NCBI GenBank assembly: GCA_913057175.1
Contig: CAJXNP010000024.1
Span: 1-64,000, forward strand
Direction of reading: 5' to 3'
Source: an uncultured Cytophagales bacterium
GTDB lineage: Bacteria > Bacteroidota > Bacteroidia > Cytophagales > Cyclobacteriaceae
Length of the DNA: 64,000 nt
The notes below the pieces were generated by a model. That model saw only the letters and a program-made list of their open reading frames with translations, had not been told where the DNA came from and searched no databases. Both the position numbers and the translations under genes were made by a program. This document shows positions 2,634 through 47,412 of the stretch, one piece after another; position 1 is the stretch's first letter, and the number at the start of each line of letters is the position of its first letter.

Positions 2634-4673
2634 TTAAACAGGAATATTCAAAACTACTTCCGTTCCAGCGGGGGTACCATCCGGGTATATTAAGTCATTG
2701 ACCTGTACCTGGGTCTGGGCCTTGTACATACGATTGATCAGCATAATCCGCTCTCCAGTCATCTTCATACCAAAAGATTTCTGAAGTGTTGCAGATTTGC
2801 TTTTCAATCTGGCAGCCTGGGTACGGCCTATCCCATCATCGGTAATCGTCACCTTTATTCCATCAGTATTTGGCTGAGTTACATTCACCTGTAATTGGCC
2901 ACCTTCCGGTTTATGCATAAGCCCATGCCAAATGGCATTCTCCACATAAGGTTGAAGAAGCAAAGGAGGAATTTCAATTAGTTCCGAATCCAGCTCTGGC
3001 ACAATCTCGATCTGATAACGGAGCTTGTCCTTAAAACGCATCGACTCCATTTGCAAATAAAGCTCCAGTGCCTCCAATTCATTTTTCAGGGTAACACGCT
3101 CTGAGCGGGAGTTTTCCAATACCAAACGTATCAACTGACTGAACCGGTTCAGGTAATCCGTCGCTTTGACCGACTCATTGTTGGCAGTATAAAGTTGAAT
3201 GGAATTGAGACAATTGAAAATAAAATGAGGGTTCATCTGCGCTCTTAGAGCTTTCATTTGCACCTCAGCCAGTTGCTGCTCAAAATCCATCTCCAATTGA
3301 CGAATATGCTGCTTCTCCAGCTGAATACTCTGCTCCCTGACTTCAGCGATACGAGCTTTTAGTTCTGCTTCAAGTTTTTCTGTATAGTTTTGTTGAAGTT
3401 CATTTTTTTCCATTTCTACCAGTCTATTTCGATAAGCAAGCGCAAGGGTAAAACAAAATAGTTCGATCGTCAATCCAAGGGCCATATAAAAGGCAGGATA
3501 ATTAAACAAATTTGAAACCTCCTGCGATAAGTGTTTCAAATCGAAGAGGCCATGAAACGGAGAAATCACAATCAAATACAAACTGATTTGCCCCACTAGT
3601 AAAAATGGTTTTAGCCTGGTGTTACTTCTAATCGTGGCCAAAATCATCAGTATGCCCATCGCGAACGCCGGTAATGTATCAAGCATAAAGTACACATTAC
3701 TGCTTTCGATCCATGTCCCGGATCTTAATTGCAGTAGTTCCATGGCTTGCAGCAGGGCAAGAAACAGCATAAATGGTTTGACAACCTTCCAAAGAAAAGG
3801 CTGTCGTTCGGAAATTTGAAGGAGGTATGATAAAAACAATGCATACAATAATGCTAAAATATGGGTTGTCGAAAAACCAATAGGGTGGCTAAGCCTGGGA
3901 ATCGAATCGGGCATAAACCCAAAACCAAACCGTGCATTGGAGAGGATGAAAATATGACATGCCGCCATAGCCGTATACAATGAATAAAATAAAAAGGCCC
4001 GATCATGGTTGAGGTAATATTGAAATAGGGAATAGATGCTCATTAATACGATACATCCGAACATGATGGACATCAAGCCAAATAGTAATCTGTTGGATAA
4101 AATTTCCCGGGCAGTAAACCATTGAAAACTTTGCCGGGTGTGCAATTCTCCGGAGACATCCGCCAACTGCAACAAATAATCAACAACTCTCACAAAATAG
4201 TGATTGGTGGTATTGGGAGGCACTTGTATTTCAAAAAAACTGTAACCACTTGCTAACCTTACCGAAGGCACAAAAAAGCCTGCACTTCCAACCTTATAAA
4301 AAGAGTCACTTTCTTTTTGGTACAATGTGACCATGCCATGCACCAATCCGGAATATAGCAGCTTAAGGGTATCCTTAAGATGGTCGTTTTTTATTTTAAA
4401 TTGAAACCATACCACCTGATTGGTTCTCGATAACTTCTGGATCGTGCGATGATTAAGATGAGGAACCTGATCAGAAGCTACGAATTTTTGTCTGGCTATA
4501 TTCGAAGGGGTTTGGAAGGTATCCGCTGTTGGTACGATATAAAAAAGGGCAAGGGGTTCAACAGAAATACCTTTTTCAAGGGTCGGTTGGTTATTAAACT
4601 CAATCGGAGAGAGCGACTGAGTCAAAGCAAGCCGGTAAGTTACCAAAAGCACCGTAAATACAATACTTCTCAT
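2634..4673 (-). CDS. 7TMR-DISM sensor histidine kinase (LytS/YehU-type)
   Basis: A membrane sensor kinase of about 679 residues. A signal peptide is followed by a periplasmic 7TMR-DISM extracellular domain, a block of seven membrane helices (roughly residues 205-420), a Gln/Glu-rich coiled coil (~425-475), and a His_kinase/HATPase module. The phosphoacceptor histidine is His486 in the MNPHFIFN motif (numbered from an upstream GTG at 4682; 483 from the ATG); the N-box is YVENAIWHG and the G-box DDGIG. I chose the ATG at 4673 over that GTG because it gives a standard signal peptide. Its partner is the LytTR regulator 14 bases downstream. 7TMR-DISM proteins are thought to bind carbohydrate-like ligands, but the ligand here is unknown. 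Confidence 0.92.
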   Translation of the reverse strand: MRSIVFTVLLVTYRLALTQSLSPIEFNNQPTLEKGISVEPLALFYIVPTADTFQTPSNIARQKFVASDQVPHLNHRTIQKLSRTNQVVWFQFKIKNDHLKDTLKLLYSGLVHGMVTLYQKESDSFYKVGSAGFFVPSVRLASGYSFFEIQVPPNTTNHYFVRVVDYLLQLADVSGELHTRQSFQWFTAREILSNRLLFGLMSIMFGCIVLMSIYSLFQYYLNHDRAFLFYSLYTAMAACHIFILSNARFGFGFMPDSIPRLSHPIGFSTTHILALLYALFLSYLLQISERQPFLWKVVKPFMLFLALLQAMELLQLRSGTWIESSNVYFMLDTLPAFAMGILMILATIRSNTRLKPFLLVGQISLYLIVISPFHGLFDLKHLSQEVSNLFNYPAFYMALGLTIELFCFTLALAYRNRLVEMEKNELQQNYTEKLEAELKARIAEVREQSIQLEKQHIRQLEMDFEQQLAEVQMKALRAQMNPHFIFNCLNSIQLYTANNESVKATDYLNRFSQLIRLVLENSRSERVTLKNELEALELYLQMESMRFKDKLRYQIEIVPELDSELIEIPPLLLQPYVENAIWHGLMHKPEGGQLQVNVTQPNTDGIKVTITDDGIGRTQAARLKSKSATLQKSFGMKMTGERIMLINRMYKAQTQVQVNDLIYPDGTPAGTEVVLNIPV

Positions 4674-4814: not shown

Positions 4815-5572
4815 TTATTTACCCGCCTGTCTTTTAGCTGGGTCAAAAGCGGTAGCATTGGGATCAATTGTTGTTACCTGTAAGGTGGCGATTTTCCATT
4901 GATCATTTTTCTTGGTAAGAACAACATTTAGCATGTGCTGATGCAGATCTCCCTTGTAAGCTTTTTGTCCTTCCGGAAAGGAATAATCATGCTCCACCCG
5001 ATGTTGACCTTTAACCCGCTTTATTCATGTGAAAAACATGAATAATGACGATAACTTCTTGAAAACTTCTATTTTTCAAGAAGTTATGTCAAGGTTAACC
5101 CCGACTTTAACAAAATCCTTACTCCCCAAATTTGAGGAATGTTTGTATTCTCAACTTACGATGAAACTAAACTTAACTCACTTGTGATCAGGATTTTGAT
5201 AAACGTCGGCCCATCGGGCGGAAAATTCATTGAATTTTCTGGGTTAACAGTAGCTAGTGCGACGGCAGGCGCCAGAAAGCGAATATCTACCTGCTGGTTT
5301 TGGCTGGAGGTATATTTGAACATGGTCTCGCCAAACACCTGATGAGCCTTGATTATTTCAGCCCGATTTTTCCAGTACATACCTACCGGATTGATCATAG
5401 TTGCATCTGGCGCATAAATATCAAATTGACCAGAATAGGTGTAGTCGTGTGCATTCCAGGCATCTTCCATTTTTTGAAGCACAGCCTGTACGGCCTTTTC
5501 ATTAGCTTTTGACTGGGTGTAACCAGAAACGCAAAGAAACAAGATAGTGATTGTCAGGATCATCGTTTTCAT
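4815..5572 (-). pseudogene. Exported SnoaL/SgcJ-EcaC-like protein, split by a TTAA mini-element
   Basis: The N-terminal part (5248-5572) begins with a signal peptide (MKTMILTITILFLC...) and carries the NTF2/SnoaL-like hallmarks MEDAWNAHD and YAPDATMINPVG. The C-terminal part (4815-5010) continues with GQHRVEHDY and KKNDQWKIATLQ, typical of the end of the fold. Between them lies the element at 5011-5247. Removing the element plus one TTAA joins the halves in frame as ALATV-KGQHRV, giving exactly 175 codons including the stop (174 aa), the normal family size. As it stands, translation runs into the element and stops after 30 foreign residues. The ATG at 5572 fits the signal peptide better than the upstream one. 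DUF4440/SnoaL-like proteins of this sort have no well-defined function. Confidence 0.85.
5011..5247. mobile_element. TTAA-flanked multi-hairpin mini-element, copy A
   Basis: A 229-bp core with ends CCCGC...TGGG, flanked by TTAA on both sides (5011-5014 and 5244-5247). It shares its whole length with copies at 23863-24180 and 47175-47412. Inside are a TTATTCATG/CATGAATAA hairpin, a second hairpin with ATAACTT/AAGTTAT arms, a long arm pair (CCGACTTT..CAAAATCCT / AGGATTTTG..AAACGTCGG) and a last hairpin with AAAATTC/GAATTTT arms. It encodes nothing. It interrupts a SnoaL-like gene, and TTAA is evidently the duplicated target. It must be moved in trans by a transposase not present in this window. 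Confidence 0.85.
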
Positions 5573-5724
5573 TGAATTAGAATTTAAGAGTTCATAAAAG
5601 AGTTTCAAATATTCAATTCAAATGTATCTCGATTTCCATTCTGTAAAGGCGGTTTGTTGCTGAGTGACCTCTCTTTATGTGTGAAAGGAAGGTATTTTGA
5701 TTAAGGTGATAGTTCACAGGCTAA

Positions 5725-23862: not shown

Positions 23863-24180
23863 TTAACCCGGTTTATTCATGTGAAAAACATGAATAATGA
23901 CGATAACTTATTAAAAACATCTGTTATTCAATAAGTTATTTCAGGCCTGATGACTCCGACAGTCGTATCAGACTCGTAGGAGTTTAACCCCGACTTTATC
24001 AAAATCCTTATTACCCAAATTTGAGGAATGATTGTATTCTATACTAATGGTGAAAACTAACTTATTTCACTTCAAATCAGGATTTTGCTAAACGTCGGCT
24101 CGTGACGATTTTGTCAGAGTCAGACATCCGATGTATCGTCTGACCCATCGGGCGGAAAATTCAATGATTTTCCGGGTTAA
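23863..24180. mobile_element. TTAA-flanked multi-hairpin mini-element, copy B (long form)
   Basis: Same ends (CCCG / CGGG) and flanking TTAA (23863-23866, 24177-24180) and the same internal arms as copies A and C, but 318 bases long. Two extra blocks of about 38 and 44 bases are inserted at single points; the second contains its own hairpin GTCAGAC..GTCTGAC, and the first an ACTCC/GGAGT stem. The extra blocks suggest growth of stems rather than insertion of genes. It lies between the AraC gene start and the end of the TonB receptor gene. Confidence 0.85.
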
Positions 24181-24287: not shown

Positions 24288-26729
24288 TTAGAATTTACCC
24301 GTTAAAGTCAGATAGAATGTTCGACCATCGGAGGGGATAATGCCAGGACCGGGATAGCCGGTTGCCCTCCTGGTGAAATACATGGAGTCGGTAAAGTTAT
24401 TGACACTTCCCTCAATCCGAAGCCATTTGTTAAGCTGATACTGAGCTGAAATATCCGCAACGTAATAAGCTGGTACCGTGCCCTCGACAGCTCCGGGAAC
24501 AGGTGGGTCATTGGAAGCATTTGTCGCATCAGTATACTGATCTGTCATATATGAGATCTGTGTGGATATACCAAGCTTTTTCCATTTGAAGGCTAAACCA
24601 CTTCTGAGGTTGACAATTGGTGAAAATTCAACACGATTGCCCAAAATCTGTGGTTCTGCTTTTATGTATTTAGTGTTTAGCAAAGTCAAATTCAGGAACC
24701 ATGTCAATGAAGATTCTTTTTTGTTTCTCAGAATATCTGTTTCAAAAAAACTTTCCAGGCCAATGTTCCTGGCATCACCTACATTGCTTTGATATCGATA
24801 AACCCTAAAAAAATTATCACGCATGAGGATCGAGCCAATTCGATCCCTGTACATCAACATGAATGCAGTAACTTCATAATTCAAAACATCAGAGATGCTT
24901 CCTCTTGCTCCCAGATCCAGGCTATATCCACTTTCATCCGTAATACTTTGATCCACGACCAATGTTGGCGTCGTAACACGGATATCGCTGTAGCTGATGG
25001 ATTTGTAGTTTTGGGAAAAATTAGCATACACTTCAAAGAGCTCACTTGGTTTATAGCTTACCCCCACCCCAAGCAATATAAAATCCCGTGGGTTTTCGAT
25101 GCTGCTGTATTCCCGAAGATCTGTTCCCTCCGGCAATAATGGATTCCCTGCCAGGTCGGTCGGCATCGTCCTCTGATAATATCCATCTGAAGTAGTTACA
25201 ATATTTTCATAACGAAAGCCGGGGGTAACACTCCAGTGATCGTTTAGCGTGAAAATGTTTTCAGCAAAGATTGCCAGGTTTTTGCCTCCGTTGTCGTAAT
25301 CATAATAAAGCGAATCAAGGTTATTGTAATAAAAATCAGGATCACTTCCTTTGGGAGCTGGCCCGTAAGTCTGCCGGGAATTCCCTGAATACAACCTGAT
25401 CCCGCCCAGAAATGACGACATTTGGTTAAACAAGGTATAACGATGGAGGATCCTTGTTTCATTTCCAATGTTTTTAAAGTCTCCATCCAATAATGTTCTG
25501 TCCATTAACGGGTCATCCGGTCGATCTATGCGATCCAAATTGCCCAGTGCCTCCCGAGTAGCAACCAATCCAAAAAAACGTGTATCGATCTTCGTCCGTG
25601 AGTTAAATGAATATTCAGCTTGTACAGCGGGCAGGTTCCATCTCACTTTAAACCAATTTCGATCCCGATACGATAGCTGAGGATTTTCGTCGAATTGCTG
25701 ATCTGTCAAGCCACCCGGCTGCCTGGCCATGTAGTACATGAATGAGTACTCAGCCGTGACCTTTAATCTGTCACTGATCTGAAAACCGGTCTTAGTGTAG
25801 GCATTGTGTGCATCAAATTCTGAATTTTCACGCCATCCATCACCTCTTCTAAACTGATAGTAGGAAATGTAGTCAAACTTACCAATGGTTCCACCAACCT
25901 GGTTATAACTATTGAAAAACCCATAGGAACCACCTGATTGAGAGGTTTCAAGACTAAACTTTTTATCCGTTGGAGCTTCTTTCAACTTGAAATTGATCAA
26001 TCCCCCAAACTGGGTGCCGTATTGGAGGGAAGCAGCTCCCCGAACAATCTGGATTTTCTCTACTGCCTGAATGGGAGGCGAATAATAACTTTCCGGATAT
26101 CCCAAGGCATCAGCACTCATGTCCACCCCGTTTTGCCTGGTATTGAAATTGGACGACCGGTTTGGACTGAGGCCCCTTCCGCCTACTCCCAACTGGATCC
26201 CGGCGCCATCGCTTTCCCAGATATTCAGCCCCGATATTCGGCCGTAAACCTGCCGGGCATTATTAGTGGCTTTATTGGCGATAATATCTTCCATGTTCAG
26301 CACCTCGCTTTTCTTACCCTCATAAATGCCCATACCCTCCACAGCACTCAAACGGGTCATGCCGAAATGATTTTCTCTTTTAGCCTGTACGGTTACATTC
26401 TTCAACTGCTCTTCAGGTTCGTGTAAATGAAAATTGGCCTGAACATCTTTGTCGCGAACAATGATTTCCTTTTTCTCAGTTGTATGTTCGTAAGCAAAAG
26501 CTACCAATGTATAAGTACCCGGAGTTACATTATCAATTGCATAATAGCCTTCGTTATCAATAACCGCACTGATAGATGTGTTCTCAATAAAAACCTGTGC
26601 CACACCCGCCACATCTCCGTCATCACAAATAACTCTTCCCTTTATTTTGTATGTAGGATTTGCCTGAGCGGTCATCTGCATACCGATCAACAAAATCAAA
26701 CCAATCACTATGTTACTGAGCTTTTTCAA
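24288..26729 (-). CDS. TonB-dependent receptor (FecA-like, iron/metal type)
   Basis: An 813-residue outer membrane receptor: signal peptide, CarboxypepD_reg-like domain (~27-115), plug domain (~125-245, with GVGGRGLSPNRSSNFNTRQNG and IQIVRGAASLQYGTQFGG) and a 22-stranded barrel to the C-terminal Phe (FYLTLTGKF). The plug matches FecA/iron-type receptors rather than SusC. It is the last gene of a four-gene minus-strand operon with DUF4856, imelysin and HTTM proteins; a substrate such as an iron chelate is inferred. Its start is a TTG that overlaps the 3' end of the HTTM gene by 17 bases. Confidence 0.9.
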   Translation of the reverse strand: MKKLSNIVIGLILLIGMQMTAQANPTYKIKGRVICDDGDVAGVAQVFIENTSISAVIDNEGYYAIDNVTPGTYTLVAFAYEHTTEKKEIIVRDKDVQANFHLHEPEEQLKNVTVQAKRENHFGMTRLSAVEGMGIYEGKKSEVLNMEDIIANKATNNARQVYGRISGLNIWESDGAGIQLGVGGRGLSPNRSSNFNTRQNGVDMSADALGYPESYYSPPIQAVEKIQIVRGAASLQYGTQFGGLINFKLKEAPTDKKFSLETSQSGGSYGFFNSYNQVGGTIGKFDYISYYQFRRGDGWRENSEFDAHNAYTKTGFQISDRLKVTAEYSFMYYMARQPGGLTDQQFDENPQLSYRDRNWFKVRWNLPAVQAEYSFNSRTKIDTRFFGLVATREALGNLDRIDRPDDPLMDRTLLDGDFKNIGNETRILHRYTLFNQMSSFLGGIRLYSGNSRQTYGPAPKGSDPDFYYNNLDSLYYDYDNGGKNLAIFAENIFTLNDHWSVTPGFRYENIVTTSDGYYQRTMPTDLAGNPLLPEGTDLREYSSIENPRDFILLGVGVSYKPSELFEVYANFSQNYKSISYSDIRVTTPTLVVDQSITDESGYSLDLGARGSISDVLNYEVTAFMLMYRDRIGSILMRDNFFRVYRYQSNVGDARNIGLESFFETDILRNKKESSLTWFLNLTLLNTKYIKAEPQILGNRVEFSPIVNLRSGLAFKWKKLGISTQISYMTDQYTDATNASNDPPVPGAVEGTVPAYYVADISAQYQLNKWLRIEGSVNNFTDSMYFTRRATGYPGPGIIPSDGRTFYLTLTGKF

Positions 26730-28062
26730 AAGGCAATATCCAATTTTTGTGTTTTAGACTTCTATCAACCTGCGCAAGGTTTATTTCAGGATCGATGAAA
26801 GGTTTACTGCGGTTTCCCTGCAGTGTGACGAGGCTTTCCGTATAAACTTCATTAGCCTGATATCTTTCTTTCAGATAATGGGCAAATTGTAAGATCATAT
26901 CCGGCTGAGTCGCCATCATGCGTTCTTGCAATTCAGTCAGATGATCGAGATTATTTACCTGAACCAATTCATTGGTATTTTCAGGTCTAATATAAAAATC
27001 ACATGATCCGGCTTTTTCCATCAGCATCACCCTCCATGAGAACCGGTAGCCTTGTTCCGTCCAGAATAATTCACCGGGATACAAGGCATGTCGGAAGGGC
27101 AAAAGGATCTGTACAGCAAAATGGATAATCAGGAAATAGGTGACCCAATGATAATTAGCATTTTTTCTTACTTCTGCAACCTCTGAAACAACGTTTAGAC
27201 CTAACCATTTTTGAATGTGATCCAAAACCTTCTCATGATTTTTTTCAGAAAAGAAGATCAATGTCAGACCAATCATAATTAATGGAAACATCCCAATCGG
27301 AAATAACAGCCACGTCATGATATGGAAAAAGACAACTGCCTGGTAAGCAGGAACTCTGGTCTTTCTTTTAAGTAGCAAAAATGGAATGGAAAGATCATAG
27401 AGCATCCCCAACCAGCTAAATGCATAAGCGACCCAAAGGTCTTTAAACATCTCACCAATGATCGGAAAATAAGCTTTCGCCGGCAACCAGATCTTAAGTG
27501 GCATGGCCTCCAACAACCAGTCAGGATTGATTTTTGCCAGACCAGCGTAAAAGTAGACAATGCCCAATTGCAGTTTGAAAATATTGATCGTCCAAGCAGG
27601 AACTCTTTTTGTTGAAATCGCCGGATTCAAGCGGCTGTCAACTGAGAAATACGCATTTGCAGGAACCCATATCAGCAAAAAGCTGATGATGCTGATAAAA
27701 TAATAGTGATTAAGATAATATGTCTTGTCAATCAACTCCACATAAGTGAAAAGCATGAAAAACGAAACAGTGGCTATCCGATAAAATAATCCGATTGTGA
27801 TAAAAAGCGCTGTCAATCCCATCAGGAAAAACAGGAAATACATCCATGGTCCGGGAAGTGGCTGAATCCAGTCAAATCCGAAAAAAGTGAAATGATATTC
27901 AGGTTGTATATAAAAATCATGGATCCATCCCTTTAAAGCAAACCGGACAATACTAATGAGCATAATCATGCCAAACAGTATCCGGAAGGTGACCAACGGA
28001 GCAATGGATACATCTTTGTGAATCAGCCGACGGGCAATATCTTTTCCAAATGGATTAGTCAC
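26713..28062 (-). CDS. HTTM-domain membrane protein (gamma-carboxylase-like)
   Basis: A 449-residue membrane protein with an N-terminal HTTM domain: about eight to nine helices (residues ~25-275 plus one at ~300-315), including the IFKLQLGIVYFYAGLAKINPDWL and FVWSYAFSWLGM..-type motifs common to the vitamin K-dependent gamma-carboxylase-like family. The soluble C-terminus (~330-449) has the FSWRVMLMEKAG motif. In bacteria HTTM proteins often accompany imelysin and TonB receptors; their chemistry is unproven. It starts at a GTG overlapping the imelysin stop by 8 bases and itself overlaps the receptor start. Confidence 0.85.
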   Translation of the reverse strand: MTNPFGKDIARRLIHKDVSIAPLVTFRILFGMIMLISIVRFALKGWIHDFYIQPEYHFTFFGFDWIQPLPGPWMYFLFFLMGLTALFITIGLFYRIATVSFFMLFTYVELIDKTYYLNHYYFISIISFLLIWVPANAYFSVDSRLNPAISTKRVPAWTINIFKLQLGIVYFYAGLAKINPDWLLEAMPLKIWLPAKAYFPIIGEMFKDLWVAYAFSWLGMLYDLSIPFLLLKRKTRVPAYQAVVFFHIMTWLLFPIGMFPLIMIGLTLIFFSEKNHEKVLDHIQKWLGLNVVSEVAEVRKNANYHWVTYFLIIHFAVQILLPFRHALYPGELFWTEQGYRFSWRVMLMEKAGSCDFYIRPENTNELVQVNNLDHLTELQERMMATQPDMILQFAHYLKERYQANEVYTESLVTLQGNRSKPFIDPEINLAQVDRSLKHKNWILPFEKAQ

Positions 28063-47174: not shown

Positions 47175-47412
47175 TTAACCCGCATTATTCATGTGAAAAA
47201 CATGAATAATGACGATAACTTATTGAAAAACTTCTGTTATTCAATAAGTTATGTCAGGGTTGACCCCGACTTTATCAAAATCCTTATTACCTAAATTTGA
47301 GGAATGGTTGTATTCTATACTAATGGTGAAAACAAACTTATTTCACTTCTAATCAGGATTTTGCTAAACGTCGGCCCATCGGGCGGAAAATTCAACGAAT
47401 TTTCCGGGTTAA
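47175..47412. mobile_element. TTAA-flanked multi-hairpin mini-element, copy C
   Basis: 238 bases including flanking TTAA (47175-47178, 47409-47412), with CCCGC..CCGGG ends. Arms: TTATTCATG 47185 / CATGAATAA 47201; ATAACTTATTGAA 47215 / TTCAATAAGTTAT 47240; the long pair 47266-47284 / 47355-47374; GGAAAATTC 47385 / GAATTTTCC 47397. All are perfect or nearly so, the best-preserved copy. It lies in the divergent gap between the HTCS and AKR-fusion genes. Confidence 0.88.

Follow-up and report, generated by a model that had tools for sequence, protein, structure and literature searches.

Three short elements within a 64,000-nucleotide stretch of an uncultured Cytophagales bacterium (the window; Cyclobacteriaceae, contig CAJXNP010000024.1) are, to judge from their sequences, probably non-autonomous MITEs that would be moved in trans by IS1380-family DDE transposases with CCCG[C/G/A]-[A/T]3-ATTCAT ends; we put the probability of this reading at about 0.87. 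The hallmarks of a MITE are present: the elements are short, repeated and devoid of a transposase gene, they have a target-site duplication of fixed length, and their terminal inverted repeats (about 14-18 bp) are common to autonomous elements, with both ends found in L254 and L257. The initial annotation had proposed a transposase-less TTAA family related to IS1380/piggyBac-type transposons, a relationship that the ends and the flanking TTAA support.

Copies, insertion sites and modules

Copy A occupies positions 5011-5247 on the plus strand (237 bp from TTAA to TTAA, target copies at 5011-5014 and 5244-5247) and has an internal TTAA junction at 5095-5098; its left terminal repeat, CCCGCTTTATTCAT (5015-5028, plus strand), and its right one, read as CCCAGAAAATTCAA on the minus strand (5230-5243), were compared with IS ends. 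Copy B (23863-24180, plus strand, TTAA to TTAA; internal TTAA at 23984-23987) is longer, 318 bp versus 237 and 238 bp in copies A and C, because of two extra hairpins at about 23944-23981 and about 24099-24143; both of these optional inserts are found again at equivalent positions in other copies of the same genome. Copy C (47175-47412, plus strand, TTAA to TTAA, 238 bp) has TTGA as its internal tetramer (47260-47263), and its left terminal repeat, CCCGCATTATTCAT (47179-47192, plus strand), is identical to the end 3' of the transposase gene in the IS of L254; its right terminal repeat reads CCCGGAAAATTCGT on the minus strand (47395-47408). The common layout starts with the left end CCCG[C/G][A/T]TTATTCAT, followed by hairpins 1 and 2 and a GGGTTAACCC-like junction (the TTGA in copy C); beyond it come the long stem 3 and a small CCCATCGGG hairpin, and the layout closes with hairpin 5, the outer arm of which is the right end. 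In copy C, hairpin 1 lies at 47183-47211 (12-bp stem), hairpin 2 at 47215-47252 (17-nt arms, covariation between genera), stem 3 at 47271-47368 (19-nt arms, 60 nt between them) and hairpin 5, spanning the right terminal repeat, at 47384-47406. Copies A, B and C contain no ORF that reaches 80 aa; a 150-aa ORF (5156-5608) enters copy A from the neighbouring gene.

With 5 nt of flank, copy C has a folding energy of -85.3 kcal/mol; its shuffled versions average -45.3, none of 200 being as low (z -8.9). Across 24 elements, drawn from the window's genome and others, z ranges from -2.6 to -15.8, and for upstream flanks of equal length from -3.2 to +2.3. Sequence and folding thus bear out the earlier description of three TTAA-flanked, gene-free and strongly folded copies at these coordinates, and an alignment holding from end to end across all three confirms their shared full-length sequence, copy B having its two additional inserts.

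As judged from the reading frame, copy A is inserted into a formerly intact gene, i.e. it has presumably moved: it splits a DUF4440/SnoaL-like gene (4815-5572, minus strand), and once the copy and one TTAA are taken out (233 bp in all), an open frame of 174 aa is regained, whose residues 28-150, spanning the junction, match DUF4440 at E 1.7e-6. The restored frame is 35% identical over residues 1-170 to an intact 173-aa frame in genome G080 and has matches, mostly distant, in 14 of 98 family genomes (own genome included). The TTAA is a 4-bp target duplication, separate from the repeat. Among 66 elements found by pattern (120-345 bp long; copy B was missed), most of them at loci fetched by a pattern demanding the right TTAA, 54 have TTAA on both sides, three have concordant other tetramers in direct orientation (TTAG in an own-genome copy on contig C21 and in G116, TTAT in L162) and nine are discordant, four of these resembling wrongly assigned left ends. 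The 14 elements from BLAST-fetched loci comprise 12 TTAA/TTAA, two TTAG/TTAG and no discordant pairs; one own-genome copy on C37, outside the 66, reads TTAA and ATAA. Since copies with TTAG/TTAG and TTAT/TTAT exist and since the frame is restored without one TTAA, the tetramer is duplicated target and not part of the repeat. The earlier proposal had been staked on TTAA flanks and empty sites, and neither check refutes it: most copies have the flanks, and the empty site of copy A restores a frame.

A BLAST search of the 6.6-Mb draft assembly of the window's own genome with copy C gave 48 rows, far more than chance would give, representing the three window copies and at least 26 further places (a lower bound, 40 of 62 candidates having been scored), some of them full elements, some single modules and several mere end fragments of 26-38 bp. 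Contigs end within or beside a copy at C17:1, C39:6, C23:94331-94451, C21:108123-108216 and C1:68, so that on this account, too, the count is a minimum. When the window was searched with a model of module 1, made from 16 elements (copies A and C included, B left out), the three copies came out with E-values between 4.8e-16 and 5.9e-14; the remaining matches up to E 1 are weak, on the minus strand and all within those copies. Solo module 1 occurs bounded by TTAA at L016 in the own genome and at L044 in G003, and with a worn end at L015 and L026 in the own genome; a solo module 2 lies on own-genome contig C5 (L051), directly followed by another left-end-like stretch. The junction reads GCGGGTTAACCCC in the Bacteroidales MAG JAFGPL and GCGGGAAACCCC in Flavobacteriaceae copies, e.g. 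WFXA. Given the solo modules, these TTAA-to-TTAA units seem to have been joined by insertion into a TTAA already present in an earlier copy.

For the 50 of the 66 pattern-found elements with enough flank, simple ORF calls give 19 with convergent neighbours, 20 with tandem ones (14 same-sense, 6 opposite) and five with divergent ones, four elements inside an ORF and two unclear cases. At 15 of the 50 empty sites the insertion point lies no more than 4 nt from the edge of an ORF, in keeping with the TAA stop contained in TTAA.

IS1380-family partner transposons

A search with PF13701 found matches in four of 11 genomes, and its leads, followed in 395 Bacteroidota genomes, gave matches in 26; relatives of the matching transposase were present in eight of 390 genomes of the window's family, at 13 places. 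The full-length DDE relatives with the same ends and TTAA that the initial annotation led one to expect occur in the same family (L254, L255, L257 and L258), none of them in the own assembly. These IS are about 1.6 kb long and have both mini-element ends and TTAA; the proteins of three of them belong to PF13701 (L254, E 8.9e-114; L257, E 9.6e-110; L258, E 1.1e-122). In L254 (TTAA to TTAA 88-1704, transposase gene 187-1485) and L257 (1342-2957, gene 1441-2739), TTAACCCGAAAAATTCAT stands on the 5' side of the gene and TTAACCCGCATTATTCA[T/C] on its 3' side, the same asymmetry as in the mini-elements, with their right end 5' and their left end 3' of the transposase gene. The right-end type CCCG[A/G]AAAATTCAT is on the 5' side also in L253, L255, L259 and L260. 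Ends of the type TTAACCCG lie on both sides in L255 and L258 and ATTATTCAT on both sides in L258 and L231; L231 (G529) has CCCGGATTATTCAT on either side and TTAA on one side only. The identity between IS and mini-elements is limited to about 14-18 bp, and the IS ends were located by motif search once the link was suspected.

Both ends with TTAA are thus present at four of the 13 places (the four loci named above), one TTAA end at L253, L260 and G676:C184 (L263/L265), and one end without TTAA at L259; L262, the same place as L214, has CCTG ends with TTAA/TTAC, and at three of the 13 (L256, L261, L264) no end is recognisable. The IS in L223 has CTAG on both sides, so the duplication is usually, not always, TTAA. 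Among the longer end pairs considered as autonomous elements, the first candidate, an inverted TTAACCCGG pair 2.7 kb apart on own-genome contig C27, proved to be a chance pair around ordinary genes; the same contig has, by eye, a cobalamin-riboswitch-like sequence upstream of a TonB-receptor-like gene (L049, about 4040-4390). The pairs at L088, L095, L157, L162 and L180 were also set aside, no transposase being recognised in the ORFs of L095 and L162, the two that were read.

The sole PF13701 gene found in the own genome (L216; C33, about 25790-27178) has CCCAAATTAAGC as its ends, flanked on either side by TTAAT, possibly a 5-bp duplication; the IS1380-family IS1247 is listed with a five-base duplication (PMC3281130). 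As this gene has other ends, and as the search of the own assembly for relatives of the matching transposase found none, the partner of the window copies is not in the assembly, and the copies may now be immobile. Co-occurrence is weak across the family: the transposase relative is found in 8/390 genomes and a match to the module-1 model in 14/390 (own included; under strict filters and with 11 candidates from each genome scored), and the two lists share only G079, with G180 having both by BLAST. The element-rich genome G056, in which all 11 scored candidates match module 1, has no PF13701 match.

Transposition could then proceed in the following manner: an IS1380-family enzyme would recognise the ~14-bp ends, cut at TTAA and insert the element into a TTAA, which would be duplicated in the process. 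Modules bounded by TTAA may be removed by precise excision, as in piggyBac, and the inner palindromes would be kept at the DNA level, as cruciforms, as single-strand hairpins or by palindrome-correcting mutation, to which the strand symmetry of their mismatches points.

Inner palindromes and rival explanations

The stems covary. In the Flavobacteriaceae/Bacteroidales type (23 elements) 98.0% of stem cells are paired and 11 of 46 pairs show two-sided changes (61 cells), values that 0/500 shuffles reach (seven reach the pair-type count) and that fall to at most one such pair when the partner is slid; in the window-type module 1 (16 elements) 93.8% are paired, with two-sided changes at 8 of 24 pairs (30 cells), where 3/500 shuffles reach the pair count, 49/500 the type count and slid partners at most three pairs. 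Relatedness of the elements inflates all these figures, and a MAFFT alignment of the window type gave a poor consensus fold. Such covariation would suit a mobile structured RNA, cis-regulatory or small, that is selected at the RNA level and carried by transposon ends, as would the excess of same-sense over opposite tandem insertions and, with the plus strand alone folded, the excess of G-U over A-C mismatches in three sets (15:7, 12:6 and 12:6; pooled 39:19). This last excess, however, arises because one strand alone was folded: at stem pairs predicted on both strands the counts are 11:7, 5:6 and 7:6 (pooled 23:19, p 0.64), the equality expected of symmetric palindromes under DNA structure or palindrome correction. 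Neither a known family nor a strand-specific tolerance of G-U was found: Rfam gave no match at the gathering cut-off and 11 weak hits, far below the cut-offs, up to E 10. With 19/50 elements lying between convergent genes as well, the RNA role suggested by the initial annotation is very unlikely; DNA structure or palindrome-correcting mutation fits the stems better, and the foldback-DNA role that it had offered alongside is possible.

An account of the interior only, compatible with a MITE, is that template-switching during replication copies one palindrome arm onto the other, so that paired changes are neutral and the stems unselected. The strand symmetry of the mismatches favours it, as do the counts between genera in the Flavobacteriaceae/Bacteroidales type (Watson-Crick swaps in 61 cells, G-U in 12, no pairing in 21) and at least two solo palindromes of G056 that resemble deletion products inside older composites. 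Yet swaps within a genome are a minority of departures (10/46 in the own genome, 12/38 in G056), and template-switching alone leaves the same stems and module order across genera unexplained; we give it somewhat less than even odds. Exact solo palindromes number five, all in G056 and none in 14 other genomes given, with near-exact ones in other fetched loci, e.g. L100 and L181; as two or more of the five lie within what is left of larger composites, mobile 28-bp palindromes were rejected and deletion products are likelier. A rather doubtful extension of the MITE reading would make these elements a phylum-wide, piggyBac-like group of bacterial MITEs whose palindromic modules, bounded by TTAA, are gained and precisely lost each on its own, the inner hairpins being selected because they aid seamless excision and re-insertion by the IS1380-family transposase or the host.

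Alternatively, a single-strand transposase of Y1/RAYT (IS200-like) type that acts on hairpins could have spread the elements as REP-like palindromes, a reading in line with their strong hairpins and with the short palindromic derivatives in G056. Y1 genes are indeed common (10 in the own genome, present in 8/9 other tested genomes), and a mini-element is found some 3.3 kb away from one of the own genes, C37:9551. However, no recognisable mini-element lies within about 1.5 kb of any of the 10 own Y1 genes, and 30 other fetched Y1 loci show a clear left end at one place only, G201:C38 (overlapping rows L191/L197), about 340-450 nt before the Y1 match, with isolated TTAACCCG strings at a few others; G003 has elements and no Y1 match. 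CCCG ends and a true 4-bp duplication (TTAG/TTAG, TTAT/TTAT) misfit Y1 chemistry, and the match to IS1380 ends speaks against it as well. In the own genome and nine others no convincing copies flank Y1 genes, and such a driver is extremely improbable. The Y1 gene of G056 (L189) is flanked by unrelated 162-nt repeats, 94% identical, with GC-rich palindromes (L189:1094-1255 and 1946-2107).

Spread and comparison with known systems

The distribution of the MITEs across genomes is patchy. The right-end pattern occurs in at least 115 stretches of named genomes; those listed are mostly from MAGs labelled Flavobacteriaceae, Cyclobacteriaceae, Saprospiraceae, Bacteroidales and other Bacteroidota, with some Chlorobiota and a few elsewhere, e.g. 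an Oscillospiraceae MAG (L079) in which no left end was seen. By BLAST, 14/196 genomes of the window's family match (own included), three of them (G016, G115, G136) with a single short match each and no visible ends. Exact scans of genome and viral collections with a single 21-mer gave no match, and the right-end pattern was absent from the viral contigs. Homology between the interiors of the window type and the Flavobacteriaceae/Bacteroidales type was not established: a core model of the latter recovers copies in a Bacteroidales MAG that did not enter the model (E 3e-15 and 4e-15) and, on the window-type loci given, just two correctly placed matches, both weak (L035, E 0.26; L094, E 0.95). 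Two other Bacteroidota MAGs have a further repeat, some 170 bp long and distinct from the MITEs, that shares the GAATTTTCCGGGTTAA right end (L086, about 1990-2163; L095, ending near 3673 on the minus strand).

The closest likeness is to IS1380-family IS (PF13701) of a Bacteroidota subgroup, which share the CCCG..ATTCAT ends, their left/right difference (L254, L257) and the TTAA duplication; in contrast, the mini-elements lack the transposase gene, measure 120-345 bp (66 pattern-found) and show, by eye, no IS likeness inward of the terminal 14-18 bp. With piggyBac and its MITEs, which are eukaryotic whereas ours are bacterial, they have the TTAA duplication and CCC ends in common, the target not being strict (TTAG, TTAT and CTAG pairs occur); IS1380 transposases serve as piggyBac outgroup (PMC10813416), and piggyBac excision at TTAA is described as seamless (PMC7351741). 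Among MITEs of Bacteroidota, MITECca01 of Cardinium is of similar length (about 240 bp), with ends reported as very similar to those of ISCca4 of the IS982 family (PMC9769881), and BrickBuilt of Porphyromonas gingivalis likewise has predicted stem-loops but, as described, other ends, internal tandem repeats and duplications varying in length, its repeat table listing IS5-family elements (PMC4596501). Searches of the open-access literature yielded no IS1380/TTAA MITE in Bacteroidota.

Structured, partly modular mini-elements are familiar from other bacteria (BOX, ERIC, RUP and Correia repeats), with hosts, transposases and targets that differ from those of the window elements. A repeat of many Bacteroidota genomes can now be tied to a named transposase family, and two questions that are usually merged are separated, as covarying stems need not mean RNA. 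Elements of this kind are relevant to assembly and annotation: they lie at the ends of draft contigs, interrupt a gene and often sit at reading-frame edges. Together with their putative transposases they would constitute a TTAA/CCC system in bacteria that can be set beside piggyBac, a transposon used in genome engineering for its traceless excision.
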